Below, one piece after another: positions 1 through 64,000 of a stretch of DNA of 64,000 nucleotides; position 1 is the first letter of the stretch, and each line of letters opens with the position of its first letter. The notes beneath the pieces were generated by a model. The model ran no database searches, was not told where the DNA came from, and worked only from the letters and a program-made list of their open reading frames with translations. Made by a program: the position numbers and the translations under genes. Source of the stretch: Cloeon dipterum (lineage: Eukaryota > Arthropoda > Insecta > Ephemeroptera > Baetidae); assembly GCF_949628265.1 (NCBI RefSeq), contig NC_088790.1, positions 6,700,545 to 6,764,544 of the forward strand. The letters run 5' to 3'.

Positions 1-46
1 AACTGTGGTAATCAGTTGTAATATATTGATTTGCATCTTTTTACAG

Positions 47-240
47 GTCCATTTTCGCATCTTTTTAACGGAGTCCATGAACAGAATTATATTGCCCACG
101 CAATCAGCTGCGCCGGCCAGTTTGGTCCCAATGCTGATATGTGCAAATCAACAAAATCAGCAGCAACAGGCTTTGGTTCAAAAACGCTTCCAATTGCAAT
201 TATGTTGATTTTTATATTTGTTCGAATCACATTGTTATGA
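47..240 (+). CDS. Alkaline phosphatase copy A, terminal coding exon only (5' part lies left of the window)
   Basis: This is the last exon of a membrane-bound alkaline phosphatase, which removes phosphate from monoesters at the outer cell surface. The exon follows a good 3' splice site (pyrimidine run then CAG at 44-46), begins in phase 1 and ends at TGA 238-240. The translated part starts [15 protein letters not shown], matching the family block that follows the GGEDVA zinc-ligand segment, and it lines up with the last exons of copies B, C and D downstream. It ends in a hydrophobic stretch of about 15 residues with no charged tail, as expected of a GPI-attachment signal. The reading frame is open. 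Whether the missing 5' exons are intact cannot be judged. A decayed copy of this same exon lies at 5477-5666. Confidence 0.85.
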
Positions 241-932
241 CTTTAGCAACAAACGATCCAGAAACTCTGTTTTTCTAATGTGTTTTTTCAAGATAATTTA
301 TTTTTTTATCATTGATATTTTATGCTGTCATTCGTCGCATTGAAATTTTAGTGGAAAAATACGATATTTCAAAAGCATGAATAAATTTTACTGATTACAA
401 CCATTACTGATTGTTAAATAGATAAACCTTCCATGTGCTAAACTGCGCAACCCAAAAATATTTGGTATACAAACAGAGGGTGATTTCTAGAACACAATGT
501 AAGAGATAGAGAATGAGTTATTAAAGGAGCCAGGCCAATGAAATTATCTGAGAGACCAATAAAGTAGCTGAATGATATGAGAACGTGATGGATTAGAGAT
601 TTTTCATCATAATTCGTAGCTACTTATCCATAAAGAGTGTATAGAGCCACATGCAGGCTATAAGCAAAATAATTATTTTCGCTTTCTTAATTCCTTGGCG
701 TTAGCCTTATTTGACCCAAAGAACTTACTTTTAAAGAGTTAGACATTATATATTTTTAAGAAGCAACATTTTAGTGAACACCACCACTGCTATCAACTTT
801 GAACGGGGCAAAACATTACCAAAGGATATAATAACTAAGCATAAATAAGGCCATTGGTGCAGGTAGAAAATGATCAGTGTTGGCGCTTAAGTTCTGGGTG
901 AGAGAACGACACGACTCATTGTTGACCTAAAA
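241..932. other. Intergenic spacer between phosphatase A and B
   Basis: AT-rich spacer without a credible reading frame. Much of it can be aligned by eye with 5667-6379 upstream of copy C, for example the shared phrase CTGCGCAACCCAAAAATATNTG near 446 and 5873. It was therefore carried along in the segmental duplication. The last 100 bp hold the probable promoter of copy B. Confidence 0.6.
841..847 (+). promoter_or_regulatory. TATA-like element of phosphatase B
   Basis: ATAAATA lies 92 bp upstream of the B start codon. The same element in the same surroundings lies 91 bp upstream of copy C (6289-6295). That position suits a TATA box with a short 5' UTR, but no transcript start is visible in DNA. 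Confidence 0.4.
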
Positions 933-3210
933 ATGAAGATTCTGAGCTTCATATTATTTTTATTTGGTCCTGCATTGGTTCTCGGAGCGGTACTTCCTGA
1001 CGATAGATCAGCAATCCGTGTTGAGGGTGAGCTAATTTGATTTATTATAGAAATTAAGAACGACTTAAAATATTCTAGATCAACGGGCCTGGTATAATGA
1101 CGCGAAAAACCGCTTACAACAAGAAAATGCAAAGAAGAAAAACACTAATAGAGCAAAAAATATCATTGTCTTTATTGGCGATGGATTTGGAATCTCCAGC
1201 ATTACTGCATCTCGCATTTATAAAGGACAATTAGCCGGCAACAAAGGCGAGGAAAGCTATCACAGTTTTGATTTATTTTCAAACGTTGGTCTCATCAAGG
1301 TGAAAATATTATTTCCCAAATTATATTTTTCACTGAATTGTAATAATATGATTGTTTGGGAAAAGACGTATTCCACAGATAAACAAGTAACTGATTCGGC
1401 AGCCTCAGCAACTGCCATACTTTGTGGCGTGAAGACGAAACAAGGCATGCTTGGGGTGGACCAGTCGGCGCCAAAAAATCCATGCGACAAAAAAAGTTTT
1501 GAAGCAGCCAAAGTCGAGAGCCTTTTAACATGGGCCCAAAAGGCTGGCATGCGAACTGGTGATTTTAAAAACTCTTTAAGATTACATAGGAGTATAAATC
1601 GTTTTCATCTCGGCAGGGTTGGTAACTACAACAAGAATAACTCATGCTACCCCAGCAGCGGCTTACGCACAAGTACCGAACAGAGGTTGGGAGAGTGACA
1701 CTCGCATACCTAAGGAATATAGGTCGTGCGTCAAAGACATTGCTAGGCAACTTGTGGAGGATGCCCCGGGAAAAGACCTAAACGTATAAATAAATGTTTC
1801 ATCGGACATCTTCAAATCAGATAATTAATTTCATATAATTTCAGGTTATTTTTGGTGGAGGCATGTGTCAGTTTGTTTCATGCAGATCTGACAATGAAAA
1901 TTTGCTTTCTAATTGGAAGCAAAGGGCAAACGCCGAAAAGTTGAAAAGCATGTTTGTAATGAACAAAATTCAGATGGACCAACTTACAAATGAAACAAAA
2001 GTATTAGGCCTCTTTGATTCAAGTCACATGTCCTTTGATTTGGAAAGAGATAAAACTGTAACAGGCCAACCTTCAATTGCTGAGATGACGGCCAAGGCAA
2101 TTAGTTTACTTCAAAACGGTGATAAGGGATTCTTTTTATTAGTAAGTATCCAATTAAAAAAATCTTAATTTTTGAACTCTTTTTTCTCATCCTATATTAA
2201 GGTGGAAGGAGGAAGGATAGATCATGCCCACCACTTAAATTTAGCAAAATTAGCTCTGGCCGACGCAGTAAGCTTTGAAAAAGCGGTTCAAACTGCCTTA
2301 AATATGACTTCTAGCAACGACACGCTTATAGTTGTGACTGCTGATCATTCACACACAATGACAATCAATGGCTATCCTGATAGAGGAAATGACATTTTAG
2401 GTTTGTAAAACCAACTTGTTAAATAAGCGTATAAACTCTTTATTTCATGTTAAGAATTTTGAGTTATATCCTACTAAATTTATTTCCTCTGTTATAGGAC
2501 TCAATAAACACACACATAAGAATGCTTATGCAACCGAAACACTCACTTATGCGAATGGGCCGGGATTTTTAAAGCACAGGAAAAATGGGACCATCAAAAA
2601 GGGAGAATATCCTTGGAATGACCCATCAGAAATGACCGACAGAAATGATAGCAGATACAGTCACTTTGCCCCTATCTACAAGGCATATGAATCTCATGGA
2701 GGAGAGGATGTGGCAATCTTTGCAAATGGTGAGAGAATTAAAGCAGTAGATAATTTAGCCAACAAAACACACGAGTTTCTTGGACTGGGGCATTATTTCA
2801 ATTGATTTGCATATTTATACGCCACGAGCTTGCCGTAAACTTTGGTCCCATACAGATTTCGCTGCAACCCCCATCGCTATAATACTGGTAACTGAGAGCT
2901 TTATAATCTCTGAAAAGCTTTTGTTAGTTTCAATCGTTTATAAAATAATTCCGTGAGCCATATTCACCACTAGATTATATATGCAAAAATTTTGATCTTG
3001 GACTTCTCATATCTTTTTTTAACAGGCCCCTTTTCACATCTTTTCAACGGCGTCTATGAGCAGAATTATATCGCACACGCCATCAGCTGCGCCGGCCAAA
3101 TTGGTCCAAGTGCAGACTTGTGCAGTGCAGCACCTTCACGCTTTGGCTTCAAGTCTTTTTCATTCGCGTCTTTGCTAATATTTAAATTAGTTCTTGCTAA
3201 ATTGTTTTAA
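933..3210 (+). CDS. Membrane-bound alkaline phosphatase, copy B
   Basis: Secreted, probably GPI-anchored alkaline phosphatase of 528 residues. Exons: 933-1026, 1079-1299, 1366-1558, 1617-1783, 1845-2141, 2202-2400, 2498-2728, 3026-3210; all phases join. A signal peptide ([18 protein letters not shown]) opens the protein. Visible active-site elements are the first metal Asp in FIGDGFG, nucleophile Ser in [13 protein letters not shown] for the Mg site, an Arg in the PNRGW block, [11 protein letters not shown] with Asp and His ligands, TADHSH, and the zinc His in SHGGEDVA. The C-terminus is hydrophobic like a GPI signal. All key residues are present, so it should be active. The segment after FGGG is about 8 residues shorter than in copy D. 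It pairs with copy C as a recent duplicate and has one more intron (1559-1616) than D. The acceptor before exon 3 has a poor pyrimidine tract, but the frame and the family block KTYSTDKQV fix it. Confidence 0.93.
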
Positions 3211-4714
3211 TTTTTGCAACATGTAATTCAGAAACAATCGCATTCATTGACAAAAATTTGTTCAACCGTAATAGTGACTATATATTCCTCACTGTTTAAT
3301 AACATGTTTGTTGAGATGATCTGAATAAATATATTAATTGAATATGATAGAAGAGGACCAAAGTGCCTGAATTAAATGATGCATGAACCAATTTCTCAAA
3401 TACTTTTGGTGTAAATCACCTCAAGGACCATGGGGAGAAGTCGGGTAAACGATGATATTGCTATAATAAAGCAATAAAGCAGGTAGCTTAAGCTGATTAC
3501 AAAGTGAAAGTTATAAGTTCTAGAGACTGGTGATTAAGCTATAATTATAGTACATAAACACAAAACTTTGATTAGAATTTTTCTTGGAACGGAAATTTGC
3601 GTATCTGTAACTAATACATAGTCAAAAATTTCGCTCATACTTTTTAAATGTAAGTGAAAAGTGATACTATATAATGAATAAAAAATGTCGATTACTATCA
3701 AATTCATGTAACAATACCGTTTAATTATACCTCAAACAATTATGAGGATTTTGGAATCGGTATGACTGACAATTGTTGCGACAGAACAGGTAAACTGAAA
3801 TCTCACCTCTAAATGGAGCAGACCGTCGTCAAATCAAATGAACAGGGGCGAAATGGAGAAGTCGATGGCAGAGGAAAATTTACTCCCTGAGTCATTTTTC
3901 AATTCAAGATGAAATTTCTTGATTTACATACTTGTTGCCAATTTTAGCAAACAATATTTTTAACAGCACATTAATTTTTTTATATTCTCACTTTGAACTA
4001 ACTTTTGTGATGCAAGTGAGTTGAAGAGATGAGTGACACTTTAACAAACAATTCAACAACAAACGTACAATAATTCAATTCGTTCCCCATAAGGCCATAA
4101 GGGATGCCATTTACCAAACAAGAGAATATGGATGCCATTCACGGTGCGCGTGAAATTTTAACTTTGAGGAAAGAGACTCAGACCAAATCACTAACAATAA
4201 GGTCGACCAAAAGCCAAATTCTTAGAATAATAACGCTAACAGGAATCTTATCCAACAAGGCGCAAGGGTTCGTCTTGTTATTAGAAATTATTCTATGCAA
4301 TGAAATTAAATTTAAACTCAGAATATATGTTTTTCTACTATCAAATGTCAAAATAGGAAACAGAAATCGTCACCAACCAAGAGACTGTCGAACAACAGAT
4401 TTTATTATGCAGACTTAGACAAGCAAAAATAACCGTGTTGTCGTGTTTGGTATTGTTGAAATTGTTACAACACAATATTGACGTCAGGGACATTTTTAGA
4501 TATTCAAAATATAACTTAAAAAGAGACGTCAGGGAAAGGGGACATGAATGAAGATTTATAACATAACATATAGAATTTACTATTTATAGAGTATTATAAT
4601 GCAAAATGAACCCTATTGGGATTTTTTTATTTGAAAAATAGCTCTAAGTGAGAACAGCATAATATTAAGAATGTTTTGCACCTTTATTTGTAATTTTGAT
4701 ACAAATTGATTTAG
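3211..4714. other. Spacer downstream of phosphatase B
   Basis: AT-rich. The part up to about 3890 matches 8669-9600 downstream of copy C with many small changes, for example the shared phrase GGGGCGAAATGGAGAAGTCG near 3845 and 9569. It marks the right side of the duplicated segment. From about 3900 to 4714 I see no gene. An open frame at 4104-4418 has no family resemblance. An 11-bp motif, GACGTCAGGGA, occurs twice near 4481 and 4525. Confidence 0.5.
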
Positions 4715-5257: not shown

Positions 5258-5476
5258 TAAAGATAAAATTCTTTATTGATTTTATTGATCATGACAATGT
5301 GCAAGTACCGTAACGGCATTATAAAGAGTAGGCAGCGCAAATGGGCCAGGGCTCTAACTGACCACCTGAACAACGCGACAGACAGGAGCAGCGTGTACCT
5401 TGCAGCGGCGAATATAGTTTTGTTTCCCCACTTAAATTTATTTAGTCGTAACCTCCTTTAATTAACCTTTTTATAG

Positions 5477-5666
5477 GTCCATTTCGCACCTTTTTAACGG
5501 GATCTATGAGCAAAATTATATTGCCCACGCAATTTGCTGCGCCGGCCAGTTTTGTTCTATAATGTTGATGCATGCACAAATCAACAAAATGAGCAGCTTC
5601 AGGCTTTGGTTCAAAGTTCAAAGTCGCTTGCAATTGTACATATTTGTTAGGATCACATTGTTATGA
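5477..5666 (+). pseudogene. Orphan copy of the phosphatase A terminal exon (R2)
   Basis: After an acceptor TTTTTATAG, the sequence follows the terminal exon of copy A almost base for base (GGTCCATTTCGCACC, then CACGCAAT and CTGCGCCGGCCAGTTTTG), but small indels break the frame. No other phosphatase exon of matching type stands just upstream; the nearest, R1, is a different lineage. It is best read as the left edge of the segment that was duplicated together with copy B to give copy C, now decaying because it has no gene body. Confidence 0.8.
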
Positions 5667-6379
5667 CTTAAACAACAAACTAGAGTATCCAGAAACTTTT
5701 TGTAATGTGCTCTTATTCAAATGAATATATTTTTATCAATTATAATTTATGCTATTATTCGTCGCATTGAAAATTTTGTGTAAAAATAAGATAAATCAAA
5801 AGCATGAATATATTTCATATTTGATTAAAACCTTTCTGATTCTTAATGAAAGAACCTTCAATGTGCAAAACTGCGCAACCCAAAAATATGTGGTATATAG
5901 ACAAACAGAGGGTGTTATAGGACAAAAATTAACACAATGCAAGAGTCAGGATATGAGTGTTTAAAGAAGCCAGGCTGGTACAATATAATCTGACGGACTC
6001 AAACATAAAATGGCTATATCTCATAGGAGAACGTGAGAAAATATTTAATTTTTCATCAGGATTCTTGGCTACTTAACCTCACGCAGAAGTAGAGCCAGAC
6101 GCAGGCTAAAATCAAAATTATTATTTTCGCTTTCTTAATTTCTTGGCGTTTGCTTAATTTGAGCCAACGAACTTACTTTCAACGAGTTAGAAATTATACA
6201 TTTTTAAGAAGCAACATTTTAGAGAACACCACCACTGCTATCAGCTTTAAACGGGGCAAAACAATAATAAAGTAAAAAAAAACTAAGCATAAATAAGACC
6301 ATTGGGGCAGTAGAAAATGATCAGTGTTGGCGCTTAAGTTCTGGGTGAGAGAACGACGCGACTCATTGTGAACCTAAAA
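5667..6379. other. Spacer upstream of phosphatase C
   Basis: Duplicate of 241-932, AT-rich and without a credible gene. The last 250 bp are the best conserved against the B upstream region, as expected for a promoter. Confidence 0.55.
6289..6295 (+). promoter_or_regulatory. TATA-like element of phosphatase C
   Basis: ATAAATA lies 91 bp upstream of the start codon, in the same context (CTAAGC before it) as the element of copy B. Confidence 0.4.
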
Positions 6380-8668
6380 ATGAAGATTCTGAGCTTCATA
6401 TTATTTTTATTTGGTCCTGCATTGGTTCTCGGAGCGGTACTTCCTGACGATAGATCAGCAATCCGTGTTGAGGGTGAGCTAATTTGATTTATTATAGAAA
6501 TTAAGAACGAATTAAAAATTTCTAGATAAACGGACCTGGTATAGTGACGCGAAAAATCGCTTACAACAAGAAAATGCAAAGAAGAAAAACACTAATAGAG
6601 CAAAAAATATCATTGTCTTTATTGGCGATGGATTTGGAATCTCCAGCATTACTGCATCTCGCATTTATAAAGGACAACTAGCCGGCAACAAAGGCGAGGA
6701 AAGCTATCACAGTTTTGAATTATTTTCAGACGTTGGTCTCATCAAGGTGAAAACATTTCTCAACTGATATTTTTCCCTGAATAATAATAATAATATTGTT
6801 TTGGAAAAGACGTATTCCACAGATAAACAAGTAACTGATTCGGCAGCCTCAGCAACTGCCATACTTTGTGGCGTGAAGACGAAACAAGGGATGCTTGGGG
6901 TGGACCAGTCAGCGCCAAAAAATCCATGCGACAAAAAAAGTTTTGAAGCAGCTAAAGTCGAAAGCATTTTAACGTGGGCCCAAAAGGCTGGCATGCGAAC
7001 TGGTGATTTTTACAAATTCTTAAAGATTAAATGGAAGTATAAATCGTTTTCAACTCGGCAGGGTTGGTCACTACAACAAAAATAACTCATGCTACCCCAG
7101 CAGCGGCTTACGCACAAGTACCTGACAGAGGTTGGGAGAGTGACACTAAAATACCTGTGGAATATAGATCGTGCGTCAAAGACATTGCTAGGCAACTCGT
7201 GGAGGATGCCCCAGGAAAGGATCTAAACGTATATATTTTTCATCGCACATCTTCAAATCAGAGAATTAATTTAATATAATTTCAGGTTATTTTTGGTGGA
7301 GGCATGTGTCCGTTTGATGAATGCAGATCTGACAATCAAAGTTTGATTTCAAATTGGGAGCAAAGAGCAAACGCCGAAAAGAAGAAAAGCATGTTTGTGA
7401 TGAACAAAATTCAGATGGACCAACTTACAAATGAAACAAAAGTATTAGGCCTGTTTAATTCAAGTCACATGTCCTTTGATTTGGAAAGAGATAAAACTAT
7501 AACAGGCCAACCTTCAATTGCTGAGATGACGGCCAAGGCAATTAGTTTACTTCAAAACGGTGATAAGGGATTCTTTTTATTAGTAAGTATCCAATTAAAA
7601 AAATCTTAATTTTTGAACTCTTTTTTCTCATCCTATATTAAGGTGGAAGGAGGAAGGATAGATCATGCCCACCACTTAAATTTAGCAAAATTAGCTCTGG
7701 CCGACGCAGTAAGCTTTGAAAAAGCGGTTCAAACTGCCTTAAATATGACTTCTAGCAACGACACGCTTATAGTTGTGACTGCTGATCATTCACACACAAT
7801 GACAATCAATGGCTATCCTGATAGAGGAAATGACATTTTAGGTCTGTAAAAACAACTTATTTAATAAGCGTATAAACTCTTTATTTCACGTTAAGAATTT
7901 TGAAATATATGCTACTAAATTTATTTCCTCTGTTATAGGACTCAATAAACACACACATAAGAATGCTTATGCAACCGAAACACTCACTTATGCGAATGGG
8001 CCGGGATTTTTAAAGCACAGGAAAAATGGGACCATCGAAAAGGGAGAATACCCTTGGAATGACCCATCAACACTGACCGACCGAAATGATAATGGATACA
8101 GTCACTTTGCTCCTATCTACACGGCATATGCATCTCATGGAGGAGAGGATGTGGCAATCTTTGCAAATGGTGAGACAATTAAACCAGCCATTTTAGCCAA
8201 TTTTAGCCAACGGAAAACACGCGTTTCTTGGACTGGAGCATTATTTCAATTGATTTGCATATTTATCGCCACGAGCTTGCCGTAAACTTTGGTCCCATAC
8301 AGATTTCGCTGCAACCCCCATCGCTATACTGATTACTGAGAGCTATAATCTCTGAAAAGCTTTTGTTAGTTTCAATTGTTTATCAAAAACATTCCGTGAA
8401 CCAACTGCACCGCTAGATTATCTAAGCAAAAATGTTGATCTTTAATCAGGTGACTTCTCATATCTTTTTAACAGGCCCCTTTTCACATCTTTTCAACGGC
8501 GTCTATGAACAGAATTATATCGCACACGCCATCAGCTGCGCCGGCCAAATTGGTCCAAGTGCAGACTTGTGCAAACCAAGCAGTTCATCATCTACACACT
8601 TTGGCTTCGAGTCTTTTTCATTCGCGTCTTTGCTAATATTTAAATTAGTTCTTGCAACATTGTTTTAA
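6380..8668 (+). CDS. Membrane-bound alkaline phosphatase, copy C
   Basis: Close duplicate of copy B, 531 residues, with the same eight-exon structure: 6380-6473, 6526-6746, 6810-7002, 7062-7228, 7286-7582, 7643-7841, 7939-8169, 8475-8668. Signal peptide, [37 protein letters not shown] and SHGGEDVA are all kept, and the C-terminus is GPI-like. From 7500 to 7843, covering the end of exon 5, intron 5 and exon 6, I see no difference from copy B (2059-2402). The loop after FGGG ([15 protein letters not shown] against [15 protein letters not shown]) and the spacer before the GPI tail differ at many residues. Both copies look functional. They may differ in expression or in surface properties; nothing in the sequence assigns a tissue. 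Confidence 0.93.
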
Positions 8669-9639
8669 TTTTTTCAACATGTGATTCAGATGAAGCAATC
8701 TTAATTGATAAATATTTTTGTTCAGTCGTTAAAAATGACTACTCCTCACTGTTTAAAAAAATGTATGGTTGATGATCTGAATAAATACATTATATGTATC
8801 AATTGAATATGATTGAAGATAACCAAGAAGGTGTCTAAATTCAATGGTTAAAGAAGTGCACGAACCCATTTCTCAAATGCTTTTGTTGTAAATCGCCTCA
8901 TTAGAGTCAAGGACTAAGGGTAGAAGTCTGGTCAAGGAAAGTGATATTGCTACAATGCTATAAAGCAGGTAGATAGCTCAAGCTGATAACAAAAGTGAAA
9001 GGTATAAAATACTGAGGACAGGCGATTAAGCTATATTTTATGGTATGTCATAAACTTTGTTCATAGAAGATATTTTTCAAAACAAAAACAATCTTGAGCA
9101 TCCAGAATTTTAAACCTTGGATAAGAAATTTGCGTATTTGAAAAGTCAACGGGAATAATGTCTCACGCATATTAATTTCGTGCAAAAACCAATGATAAAG
9201 TTAGCTAAAAACTAGCAAATAAATTTTTAGGAAAGTCGCATTATGGTCATTATGGACCATTTCATTCGTGTTTTACCTAAAAGAGAAACTAATCATTGCA
9301 AAATAAAGTTGATTTTAAATGCAAAAATTATTATTTTGACTAACATAATAATATAATATTAAAATTGTACATCATGTACTTTGAGTAACAAGTGACACGT
9401 GAACCAAAAATGTCGATTACTGTCAAATTCATGTAGCAACGTTTGTTTTTTAAGCCTCAAACAATTAATGGGGTTTTGGAATCGGTATGAAGTATTAATG
9501 AAAATTCTTGCGACAGAGCAGGTAAACTGAATGGAGATGGAGACCGTTGTCAAAGCAAATGAACAAGGGGCGAAATGGAGAAGTCGGTGGCAGAGAAAAA
9601 TTTAATCACATTATTATATTATATGGTTGCGGTCACGTA
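8669..9639. other. Spacer downstream of phosphatase C
   Basis: Diverged duplicate of 3211-3890, AT-rich. I see no gene. The match to the first copy fades out near 9600, which sets the right-hand limit of the duplication. Confidence 0.5.
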
Positions 9640-10856: not shown

Positions 10857-12849
10857 ATGAGGGCTTTGGAAACTGTCGCCGCTTGCGTTCTGCTGCTGCA
10901 AGCGACTGCAGTGTGCAAGTACCTTGAAGTTGTGCAGATAGAAGGTAAATTTGTGATACACCAGAGGGAAAATTTTGTATACCATCATTCATATTAAAAG
11001 CCTTTTTGTATGAACAGTTAAATAAATTATAATTTTCAGATAAAAATTACTGGTACGAATTGGGAAAAAGCCGTCTTCAAGATCAATTGAAAAAGACGAT
11101 GAACCTCAATCGAGCTAAAAACGCAATTTTCTTTGTTGGTGATGGAATGGGCCTAACAACGGTGACTGCATCAAGAATTTACAAAGGGCAACTTAACGGT
11201 GAAACAGGAGAGGAAAACTACCATGCATTTGACCTTTTCCCTGACATAGGATTGGTGAAGGTAATAACAATTTTTATTGATTATAATTCACTGCTTATTA
11301 TTCATTTTTAATCACTCCGTCACGTGATAGACTTACAACACTGACAAGCAAGTTCCTGATTCGGCAGGAACCGCGACAGCTATGTTTTGTGGCGTAAAAA
11401 CTAAGTATTACACTGCCGGCATTGACTCCACTCTACCCACGGGGGAATGTGACCCTGAGCTTTACGAAGCAGCCAAAGTCGACTCTTTGCTTAAGTGGGC
11501 TCAAGACGCTGGAAAGCGAACTGGATTAGTAACAACGACCCGAATCACCCACGCAACCCCATCAGCGGCGTACGCGCACATCGCAGAAAGAAACTGGGAG
11601 TGTGATGGCAAGATACCACCTGAATACCAAGGGTGCATGAAAGACATCGCTAGGCAGCTTGTTGAGGAATCGCCAGGCAAAGATATCAATGTATGTCCAA
11701 CGAAACTGACAACGAGTTACTATATAATTAATGTCCATTTTTTGGACTATTTGGTTTGATAGGTTGTTTTCGGAGGTGGTCAGCAGCAATTGGGATTCGC
11801 AATAGGCGATGATGATTCCTGCGAGAGGACTGATGGCCTTAACTTAACTGAAATTTGGGAGAATGATCGCAAAGCGGAGGGAGTCAGTCACCGATTTGTC
11901 ATCAACAGAGGTCAAATGGAGGAGCTTTCAACGGAGGATAAAGTCCTTGGATTGTTCGGGTTTGGTCACATGGCGTATGATCTTGAGAGAGATACCGGAG
12001 CAGACGGGCCACCATCAATCGTGAACATGACGGTCAAAGCCATTCAAATGCTCCAAAGGGGAGAGAACGGATTCATGCTGATAGTAATTGAGGGGTTAAT
12101 ATTAACAATGGCAGCGAGATAAAAAAATTAAATTAGGTCGAGGGCGGAAGGATTGACCATGCCCATCACGACAACTTCGCGAAACTTGCTCTGTCTGAGG
12201 CGGTAAGGTTTGAAGAGGCCATATCTGCGGCTCTGGCAATGACCTCCAGGGATGACACCCTCATAGTCGTAACTGCTGATCACTCGCATTCACTCACAAT
12301 GAATGGTTATCCAAAAAGAGGAAATGATATTCTTGGTGAGACTTTTCACTTTTGCTCTCATTTCTTTAATAATCAATTAACTCTCACTTAGGTTTTGCTC
12401 ACGATGAGCTTGACAAGCCTATCTATGAGACCCTGACATACGCGAACGGTCCAGGATACAACGTGCACCGCAAAAACGGCAGCATCGACTCAGATGAGTA
12501 CCTTTGGAAAGACCTAACCTTGATGGAAGACCGAGATGAGACGCGTTATATGCACTTTGCACCGATTTATGAAGAGACGGAGACCCATGGTGGTGAAGAT
12601 GTTGCAGTATATGCGATAGGTAGGGCAATAATCAAGTGCCAGGAAAAAATAATTACAAAATATTCGTTTTCAGGCCCTCAATCTCATTTGTTCAACGGCG
12701 TTTTTGAACAAAGCTACTTAGCGCACGCTATCTCGTGTATTGGAAAGTTTGGTCCAAACCCCACGCTTTGTAGTAGCGCACCAGTTTCAGCTAAATCAAC
12801 CTCTGTTTTAATCATGGCTTTCCTTTATATTCTGAACCGTCTCATTTAA
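10857..12849 (+). CDS. Membrane-bound alkaline phosphatase, copy D
   Basis: A more conventional member of the array, 530 residues, in seven exons: 10857-10944, 11040-11260, 11331-11690, 11763-12083, 12137-12335, 12392-12619, 12674-12849. The signal peptide ends near the Cys of ATAVCKYLE. Active-site blocks are [17 protein letters not shown] with the nucleophile Ser, [17 protein letters not shown] with the phosphate-binding Arg, [17 protein letters not shown] and THGGEDVA. The last 15 residues are hydrophobic as for GPI attachment. Exon 3 is continuous where B and C have an extra intron, and the loop after FGGG is full length with the [13 protein letters not shown] block. D looks like the least altered gene of the cluster; B and C are its faster-changing relatives. 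The extracellular reaction is phosphate release from monoesters using two Zn and one Mg. Confidence 0.95.
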
Positions 12850-47606: not shown

Positions 47607-49137
47607 ATGTGCGACCGTTTTACATCTTTGCGACCCAGGAGACATTCCTTTGACGACTTCATATCTGTGGAAGAATTAAATGCTGGTGGTATCACGCTGC
47701 GGAAATGCAAATCACTGTGGTAAGTAAAGAGCTAAATGATTTTTGTCAACATTAAATGCAATTTCTCAATTTGAGGCCTTAATTAATTCATTAATTTGCT
47801 GCTGTTTAGTGATTAAAATTCAACATTTATATATAATAACATTTTTTCAGTGGTGATAAAGTGGAAACTGAATCTAGTCAATCAAGTGAAGGAGAATGGA
47901 GCGATGATGATTCAACTGACTCCGTCAAGTTTGAAATTAGCGCTGATTGTTTGAAACCAGAGCAAAGACGATTCACTGCCCAATTGAAGGACCAGCAGCT
48001 GGTGAAACCTGTCAAGCAAGAGGCGTATGAGAAGCGCGGAACTGCTCCGGATGATCTTAGTTCGTTCCGTGAACATCACAAGTGGGTGCCGCCGAGACAC
48101 TTGGACAGCTTGCTACCGAGCCACGTCTATGTAAGCCCTGTTCATACCGCTTAGAGCTGTACTTTCTGTTTTCAATATATCTGTTTTTTCAGGCAATACC
48201 CACTCCAAATTATGTCTGGAAAATGCGCCGAAAGAAATTAACAAAAAAGAAGCATTACGATCAAAAGCGTTTTGAGGTTTTGGAGATCGCGTCTGACATT
48301 GACACAGATGATGATAAGTTTGAAGAGGATACGGAGAAAGGCCTTGACGCGTTGCCTGCTCGCCCAACGGTTCGAGAGACGAATATTTCAAGAGTTGAGT
48401 GGTTAAAATCGAAATTGACTCCATTGAGAAATCGCGCGTGCAGTAGTGATGAATATTCGGACACGTCTGACCCAGAGTCTGAAGCGCCAAGCAGTCGGAG
48501 CAACATGAAAACTGCTTGTAACAGCTCTGACGATGACTTTTGTCATGTTGACCGAGATAGTGATTACGAATACTCTCATTTGTGGGGAGAATCTAACTCT
48601 GATGACGACTCCAACTTAGATTATGGGCCTAAGGATGTTGACTTCTTTGGCACTGAATACCTTTCGAATTCCCCAAAGCAGTCGAGAAATGTAGTTGCAA
48701 TGAAAAAGTGTTTCCAAGCCTATGATTCTCCTTCTCCAGAGCCATTTTTGCCTGAAACGCTATGTGAACCTGTGGTTGGACCCATCTGTGTGCACAAAGT
48801 AGGAGCCAGTGATTTACTGGCTCTTGAAATGATGGACTTTGGCCTTGATGCCCATTCAGATATGCCCAGGGTGTCAAATAATGCTCCTACTTTCAAGCTG
48901 GCAGAAGTGCCTGTTGACTTAAGATCTGAAAAGTTGGATATTGATGTAAATTCACTTCTTTCAAATGTTCATGCGGGGGCAGCTAACTGTGATCATGTTA
49001 AAATTTCTGAAACTTCGAATATTGCTGGGATTAAAAGACAATACCACGCTACAGGACCAGGCATTGAGGAATTTGACACTGTGTCAAAATTTGCTCGGTT
49101 GCATACACAAGATACTTCAAGTGGCGACGAATCCTAA
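47607..49137 (+). CDS. Unrecognised acidic, serine-rich, probably nuclear protein
   Basis: Three coding exons (47607-47719, 47851-48130, 48193-49137) give 445 residues with clean phase-2 and phase-0 junctions. I do not recognise the family. What can be seen: an N-terminal block LRPRRHSFDDFISVEELNAG, a run SSQSSEGEWSDDDSTDSV of casein-kinase-2 type, a likely conserved core PDDLSSFREHHKWVPPRHL then IPTPNYVWKMRRKKLTKKK, which is also a strong nuclear localisation signal, more acidic Ser/Asp clusters (for example SDTSDPESEAPSS), and a long low-complexity tail ending SSGDES. No signal peptide, membrane segment or zinc finger is present. It could be a chromatin- or transcription-related adaptor, but that is inference from composition. 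It shares a head-to-head promoter region with BRAP. Confidence 0.85.
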
Positions 49138-56779: not shown

Positions 56780-57492
56780 ATGCTGCGAACAGTAGTCGGG
56801 AGGTTAAATTCCGTCGCCAGGGATGCCGTTTTCCGCAGTGCTGGAAGTGAGTAATATTTTCTTTTTTAAAGAGAAGTAGAGTCTTCATTTAAATCCCGTA
56901 TATTTTCTGACTCTCTACTTGATCGCCGCTTACCCTTCAAAAAATGTTTCAGTCGGCTCTGTTAGGTGTATGTCCAAGCATTCGACCGAGACCGATGCCG
57001 AATTCGATGCTCGCTACGAAGCCTTTTTCAACAGGGCAGACATTGATGGCTGGGAGATCAGGAAGGTGAGAGATAATTTTAATTAGAAGACTTCTGTAAT
57101 CTAAACGTCAAACTACGACAATTCTGAACATAACATGTTGTTTCATTTAGGCCATGAATGACCTGACTGGCATGGACTTGGTACCTGAGCCAAAGATCGT
57201 CACAGCTGCCCTGAAGGCTTGCCGACGAGTCAATGATTATGCCCTGGCCGTGAGGTACTTGGAAGCTGTCAAGGAAAAGTGTGGTGGCAAGGTCAACGAA
57301 ATTTACCCATATGTTCTCAAGGTACTAAACATTGTTTGTCTTGTAATCAGTATGTACCTACAAGTTCTTAAAAATAATTTTTCTTTTCAGGAAATCCGCC
57401 CTACACTTGATGAGCTTGGCATTAACACCCCTGAGGAGTTGGGTTATGACAAACCTGAACTTGGTCTTACAAGTGTGTACGACATGCACTAA
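56780..57492 (+). CDS. COX5A: Cytochrome c oxidase subunit 5A, mitochondrial
   Basis: Nuclear-encoded subunit of respiratory complex IV, facing the matrix. Exons: 56780-56846, 56953-57065, 57151-57321, 57391-57492; 150 residues, the same length as human. An Arg/Ser-rich mitochondrial presequence ([18 protein letters not shown]) precedes the mature block [20 protein letters not shown], then [46 protein letters not shown] and [20 protein letters not shown], all diagnostic. It ends with a slightly longer tail than vertebrates ([10 protein letters not shown]). All residues expected of the family are in place. Confidence 0.96.
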
Positions 57493-58059: not shown

Positions 58060-58589
58060 CTAATTTTTCTCTTTGCTCTCTTCTTTCGCCTTGATCCTAT
58101 TCCTCCAAGCAGTCATGTATGTTCTTGGGTGAATGGGCAAATATCCAGAAAGACCTTTCAAAAACGGTTCAAGGTGTACATTTAATTCTAACTCCCGAAT
58201 TTAATTGATTTCGTACTACCTAAAAGTTCAGCAACAGGATCAGTCAGGTTAACTCCTCTTGCAAGCCAGTGTTGTATCCTTTCAAAATTGAATGCCACTA
58301 GCTTTTGGTTTCTTTCATTTGGCAACGGATCATACGAGCCGACCTGTTCAATTACTGGCATGTGCTGGTCGGTGCGTTGCTGCAAAATTTTAATTATTAA
58401 TATCGAGTATGTATTGGTGATGTAATTAAATAATTTATATACCTCTGCAACGACGATATGGAAGAATGGTCTGTTTGCGCAGCCCATGCGGACAAATCTA
58501 ATTATTTTCTTCGAATCATCTTTGTATGAAGCTCCTCCGCTGGCTGGTTTGATAACGTTTCTCCAGTGAATTATCCTCTTGGCAGCCAT
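58060..58589 (-). CDS. MRPS16: Mitochondrial small ribosomal subunit protein bS16m
   Basis: Component of the mitochondrial small ribosomal subunit. Exons: 58589-58443, 58379-58220, 58154-58060; 133 residues, in line with about 137 in human. The S16 fold is recognisable from KKIIRFVRMGCANRPFFHIVVAE, VEQVGSYDPLPNERN-like text (EQVGSYDPLPN), KLVAFNFERIQHWLARGVNLTDPV and AELLGLSGYLPIHP. The start is the first true ATG of the frame (MAAKRIIHW); the N-terminus is basic enough for mitochondrial import without a long presequence. The C-terminus is rich in Lys and Glu. Confidence 0.95.
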
Positions 58590-59288
58590 ATCCAATTAAT
58601 TTTAAATAACCTAAAATACCCAATACAATATTTATGTTTTAGTTCCTGAGTTTATAGTGTAAAAGTGTACTTAATATTTTTAAAAAGAGAATTCCTTTAT
58701 TTACACATTTTTCCCAAGATTCGGAGTGTGTATGTAAATATGAGAACACTTCTTCAAATCTTTATATATACATATGTGTTGATACATGCAAGACAAGTAT
58801 GAATATGTTTACAAATAAATTTTATAATTTTCCTTACGGTCTTTGGGTTACTAGACGTTCGATTAATACTCAACATCAAGCATTAAATAATCCAACTAAA
58901 TCCTGATCCTGCTCTATAATTTCCTTGCTTGCTCTCCAACTTCGATTTTTATTTTTTTCTCGTCCCTCAACACACACACCCCCTTCACTTGCATCGGTGC
59001 TCCTGCGCACGTGCTCTGTGCTGCACGACACACCCATTTATAAAATTTGGCATTGGAGCTCTCGTTACTCTTTGGCTCTTTTGATATGTAAATAAATATA
59101 AAACAATAATACATATCACTCTTTTCGGTTTGCAAATTATTCTATCTACTAGAAGTTTAAAGTAAGGTTTAGCAGGGTGAGTCTTATAAATCACTCAAAT
59201 CAAATAAATACACAACAAAAATAATTTAATAAATAGTTTCACGTCTTCTGCAATCGATTGGACCGAATTTTTGACTTCTTTTGGTTCA
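58590..59288. other. Divergent region between mRpS16 and Pcc1
   Basis: AT-rich, no gene. An ATCGAT hexamer lies near 59253, 36 bp before the Pcc1 ATG. Frames on the minus strand near 58914-59194 are unsupported. Confidence 0.45.
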
Positions 59289-59688
59289 ATGACTTCGTCC
59301 CTGTGAGTTTGAGTTGAATTAATTTTTCCTTATTTTGTTTACTTACCTTTATGAATTTTCTTATTATCTGTAGGGTGTTGACTGTCCCATTCGCTTCTAA
59401 GCGTGAAGCTGAAATTGTTTATGATGTCCTCAGAGTGGATGAAGAGCCTAAACGTGGAGGCACAAAGAAAACGCTGAAGCTAATCGATTCAACAATTGAA
59501 GTGTAAGCTAAATTTTCCTCAAAGTACCTTATCATGAAACAAAAATAAAAAATTTCAGTTCCTTTGAAGCCCCTGAAGTGAGGCATTTGAGGGTGGCATC
59601 CAACTCATTTTTTGAACACCTCATTCTCGTCCAAGAGACCATCAAAGCATTCGGACCACCAAAGACGGAGAAATATGAGCACTGGTAG
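59289..59688 (+). CDS. LAGE3: KEOPS/EKC complex subunit Pcc1 (LAGE3 family)
   Basis: Small dimerising subunit of the KEOPS complex that makes the t6A modification of tRNA. Exons: 59289-59302, 59374-59502, 59559-59688; 90 residues, close to yeast Pcc1 (88). The first coding exon is 14 nt (MTSSL split) and joins in phase to VLTVPFASKREAEIVYDVL. Family blocks are VPFASKREAEIVYDVLRVDE, then IEVSFEAPEVRHLRVASNSF and FEHLILVQETI. The start has a weak context (T at -3, A at +4). The last 14 nt overlap the start of PIG-P in another frame, with no splice site or room for a promoter between, so both are probably translated from one mRNA. Confidence 0.9.
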
Positions 59689-60082
59689 CCGCAAAGAACA
59701 GCAGGTGCACACACCCGCACCAACACCCAGCAGAGCAATCCAGGGCTTGGTGCTGTATCTAGGCTGTAGGGGTGCATTTATATTCTACCTGATATGGGTT
59801 TTGATTCCCGCACCATGGCTCAAACAAGCAGGTCTGGACTTTTTGCCGCACAAGTATTGGGCTGTCGCGCTACCTGTCCTTGTGTGTGTCATGTTGGCGT
59901 TTACAGCCTTCCTTATTTACCCAGCTCTCGGACTTGTTTTAACTCCCTCCATTGAAGAGCAAGAATCTTTTGTGAGTGATCAAGATTATCAAGACGACAG
60001 TCATGAAGAAAATCGGACTTTCCCTTCGCAGAGGTTTGTGCCCAACGCGGTGGTAAACAGAATTTTGTTTGGTGAACAATAA
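59675..60082 (+). CDS. PIGP: PIG-P, subunit of GPI-GlcNAc transferase
   Basis: Subunit P of the GPI-N-acetylglucosaminyltransferase, which starts GPI-anchor synthesis on the cytosolic face of the ER. The frame is uninterrupted in one exon, 135 residues, with the PIG-P pattern of two membrane segments (GLVLYLGCRGAFIFYLIWVL and WAVALPVLVCVMLAFTAFL) and the conserved KYWAVALP block between them, then an acidic tail. Start at 59675 (MSTGSRKEQQ) is preferred over an in-frame ATG at 59612, because the extra 21 residues would simply be the Pcc1 coding sequence read out of frame and are basic and unlike the family. It overlaps Pcc1 by 14 nt in the +1 frame. The stop codon lies inside an AATAAA hexamer. 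Confidence 0.92.
   Translation: MSTGSRKEQQVHTPAPTPSRAIQGLVLYLGCRGAFIFYLIWVLIPAPWLKQAGLDFLPHKYWAVALPVLVCVMLAFTAFLIYPALGLVLTPSIEEQESFVSDQDYQDDSHEENRTFPSQRFVPNAVVNRILFGEQ

Positions 60083-60466: not shown

Positions 60467-64000
<3,534 letters not shown>

Follow-up and report, generated by a model that had tools for sequence, protein, structure and literature searches.

We identified two complete genes with overlapping reading frames, encoding Pcc1/LAGE3 and PIG-P, on the + strand of a 64,000-nt stretch of Cloeon dipterum DNA (the window). Pcc1 is a subunit of the KEOPS complex and is required for t6A on tRNA, while PIG-P is a subunit of the first enzyme in GPI-anchor synthesis. The locus is probably the counterpart of Drosophila CG14550, with both proteins encoded on one mRNA and PIG-P produced by leaky scanning together with reinitiation, a transcript and a mechanism that we infer from the sequence.

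Identification of overlapping Pcc1 and PIG-P genes

Splicing of the window sequence gave a complete Pcc1/LAGE3 gene with three exons (Table 1) and a predicted product of 90 aa (MTSSLVLTVPF...FGPPKTEKYEHW up to the stop codon). The Pfam profile PF09341 (Pcc1) spans this product from end to end (profile positions 2-75 of 75). A PDB search matched human LAGE3 (6gwj_B; E=5e-8) and also a plant homologue. With its full-length Pcc1 domain, the protein belongs to the Pcc1/LAGE3 family of KEOPS subunits. The Pcc1 ATG is preceded by an in-frame stop without another ATG between them and an intact Pcc1 can therefore start at no other AUG. Both Pcc1 introns are very short, with 71 nt for intron 1 (59303-59373; GTGAGT..CTGTAG) and 56 nt for intron 2 (59503-59558; GTAAGC..TTTCAG). 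Intron 2 contains an AATAAA hexamer (59544-59549), which, if used with intron retention, would at most yield a truncated Pcc1 transcript without PIG-P.

The profile PF08510 likewise covers the PIG-P protein end to end (positions 2-121 of 121; 81.9 bits against a cutoff of 39.3), which places it in the family of GPI-GlcNAc transferase subunit P. The next methionine of PIG-P is residue 73. As this residue falls inside the domain, the ATG at 59675 is the only AUG yielding an intact protein. A PDB search with PIG-P revealed no match. Relatives were likewise absent from the prokaryote and viral contigs searched, in keeping with the eukaryotic nature of the gene. The full-length matches to PF09341 and PF08510 bear out the identities proposed for the two proteins in an earlier note on this DNA.

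Table 1. Positions of the Pcc1/PIG-P locus and of flanking features in the window
Feature	Position	Strand	Remarks
mRpS16 (mitochondrial ribosomal protein S16)	58188..58595	-	divergent; bounds upstream promoter region; PF00886 E=5.2e-20
Pcc1/LAGE3 CDS exon 1	59289..59302	+	start codon 59289, weak context GGTTCA-ATG-A
Pcc1/LAGE3 CDS exon 2	59374..59502	+	bounded by GT-AG introns
18-codon ORF in Pcc1 exon 2, +1 frame	59421..59477	+	holds all three internal ATGs; ends 141 nt of mRNA before PIG-P ATG
Pcc1/LAGE3 CDS exon 3	59559..59688	+	TAG stop 59686-59688; PF09341 E=4.6e-23
14-nt coding overlap ATGAGCACTGGTAG, PIG-P start to Pcc1 stop	59675..59688	+	read from the sequence
PIG-P CDS	59675..60082	+	single exon, 135 aa, complete; PF08510 E=4.2e-23
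AATAAA polyadenylation signal overlapping PIG-P stop codon	60078..60083	+	hexamer scan
DZF domain	60784-61233	-	convergent; domain match
dsRNA-binding zinc finger	63187-63825	-	domain match

The PIG-P ATG sits in the last Pcc1 codons, in the +1 frame relative to Pcc1 and within a single shared exon; inspection of the bases confirmed the overlap that had been described before. Since two complete conserved domains occupy the adjoining frames, neither frame is a chance ORF. The Pcc1 ORF lies immediately 5' of the PIG-P ORF on the same strand, which is the order that characterises a locus of the CG14550 type. Annotation of such a locus calls for caution, as a pipeline allowing one CDS per transcript would lose either Pcc1 or PIG-P here.

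Transcription unit and genomic surroundings

The genes on both sides are opposite in direction to the Pcc1/PIG-P pair, which thus has a single intergenic region on its 5' side (~690 nt) and a single 3' end. A hexamer scan from 59550 onwards, covering exon 3, which is shared by the two frames, revealed no AATAAA or ATTAAA before 60078. Given that no poly(A) signal separates the frames in this exon and that the neighbours are on the opposite strand, a single dicistronic mRNA carrying Pcc1 and PIG-P is the simplest reading of the sequence. The downstream DZF domain and dsRNA-binding zinc finger are probably parts of one Zfr-like gene.

COX5A (56880-57492, + strand), mRpS16 and Pcc1/PIG-P (59289-60082) form a compact housekeeping cluster of ~3.2 kb. 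Elsewhere in the window, a 3.6-kb tandem duplication with 87% identity (37-3559 and 5467-9055) lies in a region with alkaline-phosphatase-like coding pieces, and an alkaline phosphatase exon (11331-11753; PF00245) is located close to it. An open frame of 354 codons at 48073-49134 (+ strand) encodes an acidic, serine-rich sequence with no Pfam match and is possibly transposon-derived or a lineage-specific gene. A tRNA scan and an Rfam scan gave no matches.

Start codon contexts and AUG distribution

The weak start context previously noted for Pcc1 was verified: position -3 is T at the Pcc1 start, compared with A, the better base, at the PIG-P start. The other ATGs that had been attributed to the leader were not found in the ~200 nt 5' of the Pcc1 ATG, the nearest being located at 59086. 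The additional ATGs are instead within Pcc1, at 59421, 59424 and 59439. These correspond to mRNA positions +61, +64 and +79 (A of the Pcc1 ATG = 0), and all are in the +1 frame. From the end of the 18-codon ORF to the PIG-P start no ATG is present in any frame, so that PIG-P has the next AUG.

Pcc1 contains no internal in-frame methionine in its 90 codons, as is characteristic of first cistrons of the stoned/snapin scanning type; zero internal methionines in 89 codons is, however, only mildly unusual (~0.13 at 2.3% Met, our estimate). Three ATGs precede PIG-P, versus ~4.5 expected from the window background. Permutation of the Pcc1 codons always returned the same four ATGs, where free synonymous choice would lead to an expectation of about two. 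The permutation is uninformative on AUG avoidance, because every Y or D codon able to create an ATG is TAT or GAT. Nothing at synonymous sites points to selected AUG depletion, as the codons used do not steer clear of ATGs.

We propose that a single promoter between 58596 and 59289, in the region common to the divergent mRpS16 gene, would give rise to one spliced mRNA, polyadenylated shortly past 60083 and encoding Pcc1 and then PIG-P. The majority of ribosomes would initiate at the weak Pcc1 AUG. The remaining fraction would bypass it, some of these ribosomes reaching the PIG-P AUG directly and others translating the 18-codon +1 ORF and then reinitiating 141 nt further on at PIG-P. When a short uORF has an AUG in strong context, reinitiation behind it is supported in Drosophila by DENR-MCT-1 (PMC5972666); only one of the three internal ATGs in Pcc1 approaches such a context (+64, with A at -3). 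The locus would provide a further, base-resolution instance of an insect-conserved dicistronic mRNA, whose start contexts and AUG positions make the leaky-scanning model easy to test.

Alternative explanations

PIG-P might also, or mainly, be expressed from a transcript of its own, started at a promoter inside Pcc1 (exon 2, intron 2 or exon 3), and the overlap would then reflect tight packing. Initiator-like hexamers are present 50-70 nt 5' of the PIG-P ATG (TCATTT at 59605 and TCATTC at 59621), and the interval 59303-59675 contains three TCAKTY matches (0.57 expected per 378 nt), one of which is the intron-2 acceptor. The hexamers at 59605 and 59621 fall, however, in conserved coding sequence (SNSFF and EHLIL), we saw neither TATA nor DRE with them, nor a DPE at the correct spacing, and an internally started PIG-P mRNA would still begin inside Pcc1. 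According to the FlyBase catalogue, Drosophila dicistronic loci have an added monocistronic transcript for one gene in 69 of 159 cases and for both genes in 45 of 159 (PMC4528330), but the Drosophila record for CG14550 shows both ORFs on a single annotated transcript (PMC2276209). We regard a separate PIG-P transcript as unlikely.

Slightly less likely again is a termination-reinitiation mechanism, in which ribosomes finishing Pcc1 would step back over the 14-nt overlap and resume at the PIG-P start in a calicivirus-like manner. The short overlap of stop and start resembles that of caliciviruses (PMC5972666). Pcc1 is also short, although its 90 codons are long for reinitiation when compared with a limit of ~55 codons (PMC4705651). 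The Pcc1 CDS lacks TGGGA, the motif 1 of TURBS elements, and the junction of the two frames shows no special RNA structure, its fold being no more stable than that of shuffled sequences (z=0.23). Together these two results argue against a calicivirus-like restart, and an IRES gains no support from them. A Pcc1-PIG-P fusion, produced by +1 ribosomal frameshifting close to the Pcc1 stop codon, appears extremely improbable. Such a fusion would result from a shift at any point in 59591-59686, because no stop interrupts the PIG-P frame from 59591 onwards; yet PIG-P possesses an AUG of its own, and the context of this AUG is good. The sequence around the Pcc1 stop, TGG TAG C, contains, to our knowledge, no recognised +1 slippery site, which counts against a frameshift, and a fusion is further disfavoured because a soluble KEOPS subunit and an ER membrane subunit belong to separate complexes. 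In addition, the fly study dropped genes in which any splice variant joins the uORF to the main ORF, and it retained CG14550 (PMC2276209).

The earlier note had called the link between t6A and GPI synthesis in one transcript unexpected. As a functional link it receives no support; fly dicistronic pairs are mostly composed of dissimilar genes, few of which have a known functional relation (PMC4528330). We consider it very unlikely that the overlap both predates holometabolous insects and is retained because a shared mRNA fixes a regulated ratio of t6A capacity to GPI-anchor synthesis, with PIG-P increasing when start stringency or eIF2 activity drops.

Comparison with known dicistronic systems

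In leaky-scanning bicistrons of green algae, a first ORF with a weak start and few upstream AUGs is an experimentally supported signature (PMC11892635). The locus described here is similar in its weak first start, its stronger second start and the few AUGs before ORF 2; lineage and genes are unrelated, and AUG depletion is statistical in the algae, whereas codon choice shows none here. Wall et al. (2005), as described in PMC3372440, reported that the second cistron of the Drosophila stoned and snapin mRNAs is attenuated when the first contains in-frame AUGs. Like the first cistrons of stoned (stnA/stnB) and snapin, Pcc1 is without an internal in-frame AUG. The proteins are unrelated, and the mechanism was tested there but for Pcc1/PIG-P only inferred.

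For D. melanogaster, FlyBase counts 159 dicistronic pairs, and the frames overlap in 18 gene pairs; the stop-to-start distance ranges from -34 to 319 nt at loci making only polycistronic transcripts (PMC4528330). The 'multiphasic' pairs of this catalogue resemble the present case in that a few bases are common to two frames of one mRNA, with overlaps mostly <40 nt (PMC4528330). The catalogue differs in covering D. melanogaster only, and its excerpted part does not name the Pcc1/PIG-P pair.

The closest parallel is CG14550, described by Hayden & Bosco (2008) as a putative PIG-P main ORF with a Pcc1-like uORF of 111 aa (PMC2276209). The earlier note's mention of a Drosophila dicistron with the same two functions is correct. 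CG42497/CG42498 as the fly pair proved partly wrong, as CG42497 pairs with Tim10; CG42498 is listed beside CG14550 among other genes and may encode the Pcc1 of the fly. Ka/Ks values of 0.13 for the uORF (p<0.05) and 0.21 for the main ORF (p<0.0001) indicate purifying selection on both, and the most distant EST supporting the arrangement is Bombyx mori CK562143 (PMC2276209). The record from Drosophila and Bombyx makes the arrangement old within holometabolous insects, in line with the earlier suggestion. As the pairing was published in 2008 for fruit flies and silkworm, the locus is already known. Our locus and CG14550 share the same two families in the same order; a single transcript is on record for the fly and predicted here, and the fly Pcc1 ORF encodes 111 aa compared with 90 aa here. 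What our analysis adds is the exact 14-nt overlap, the start contexts and the AUG layout in another arthropod.
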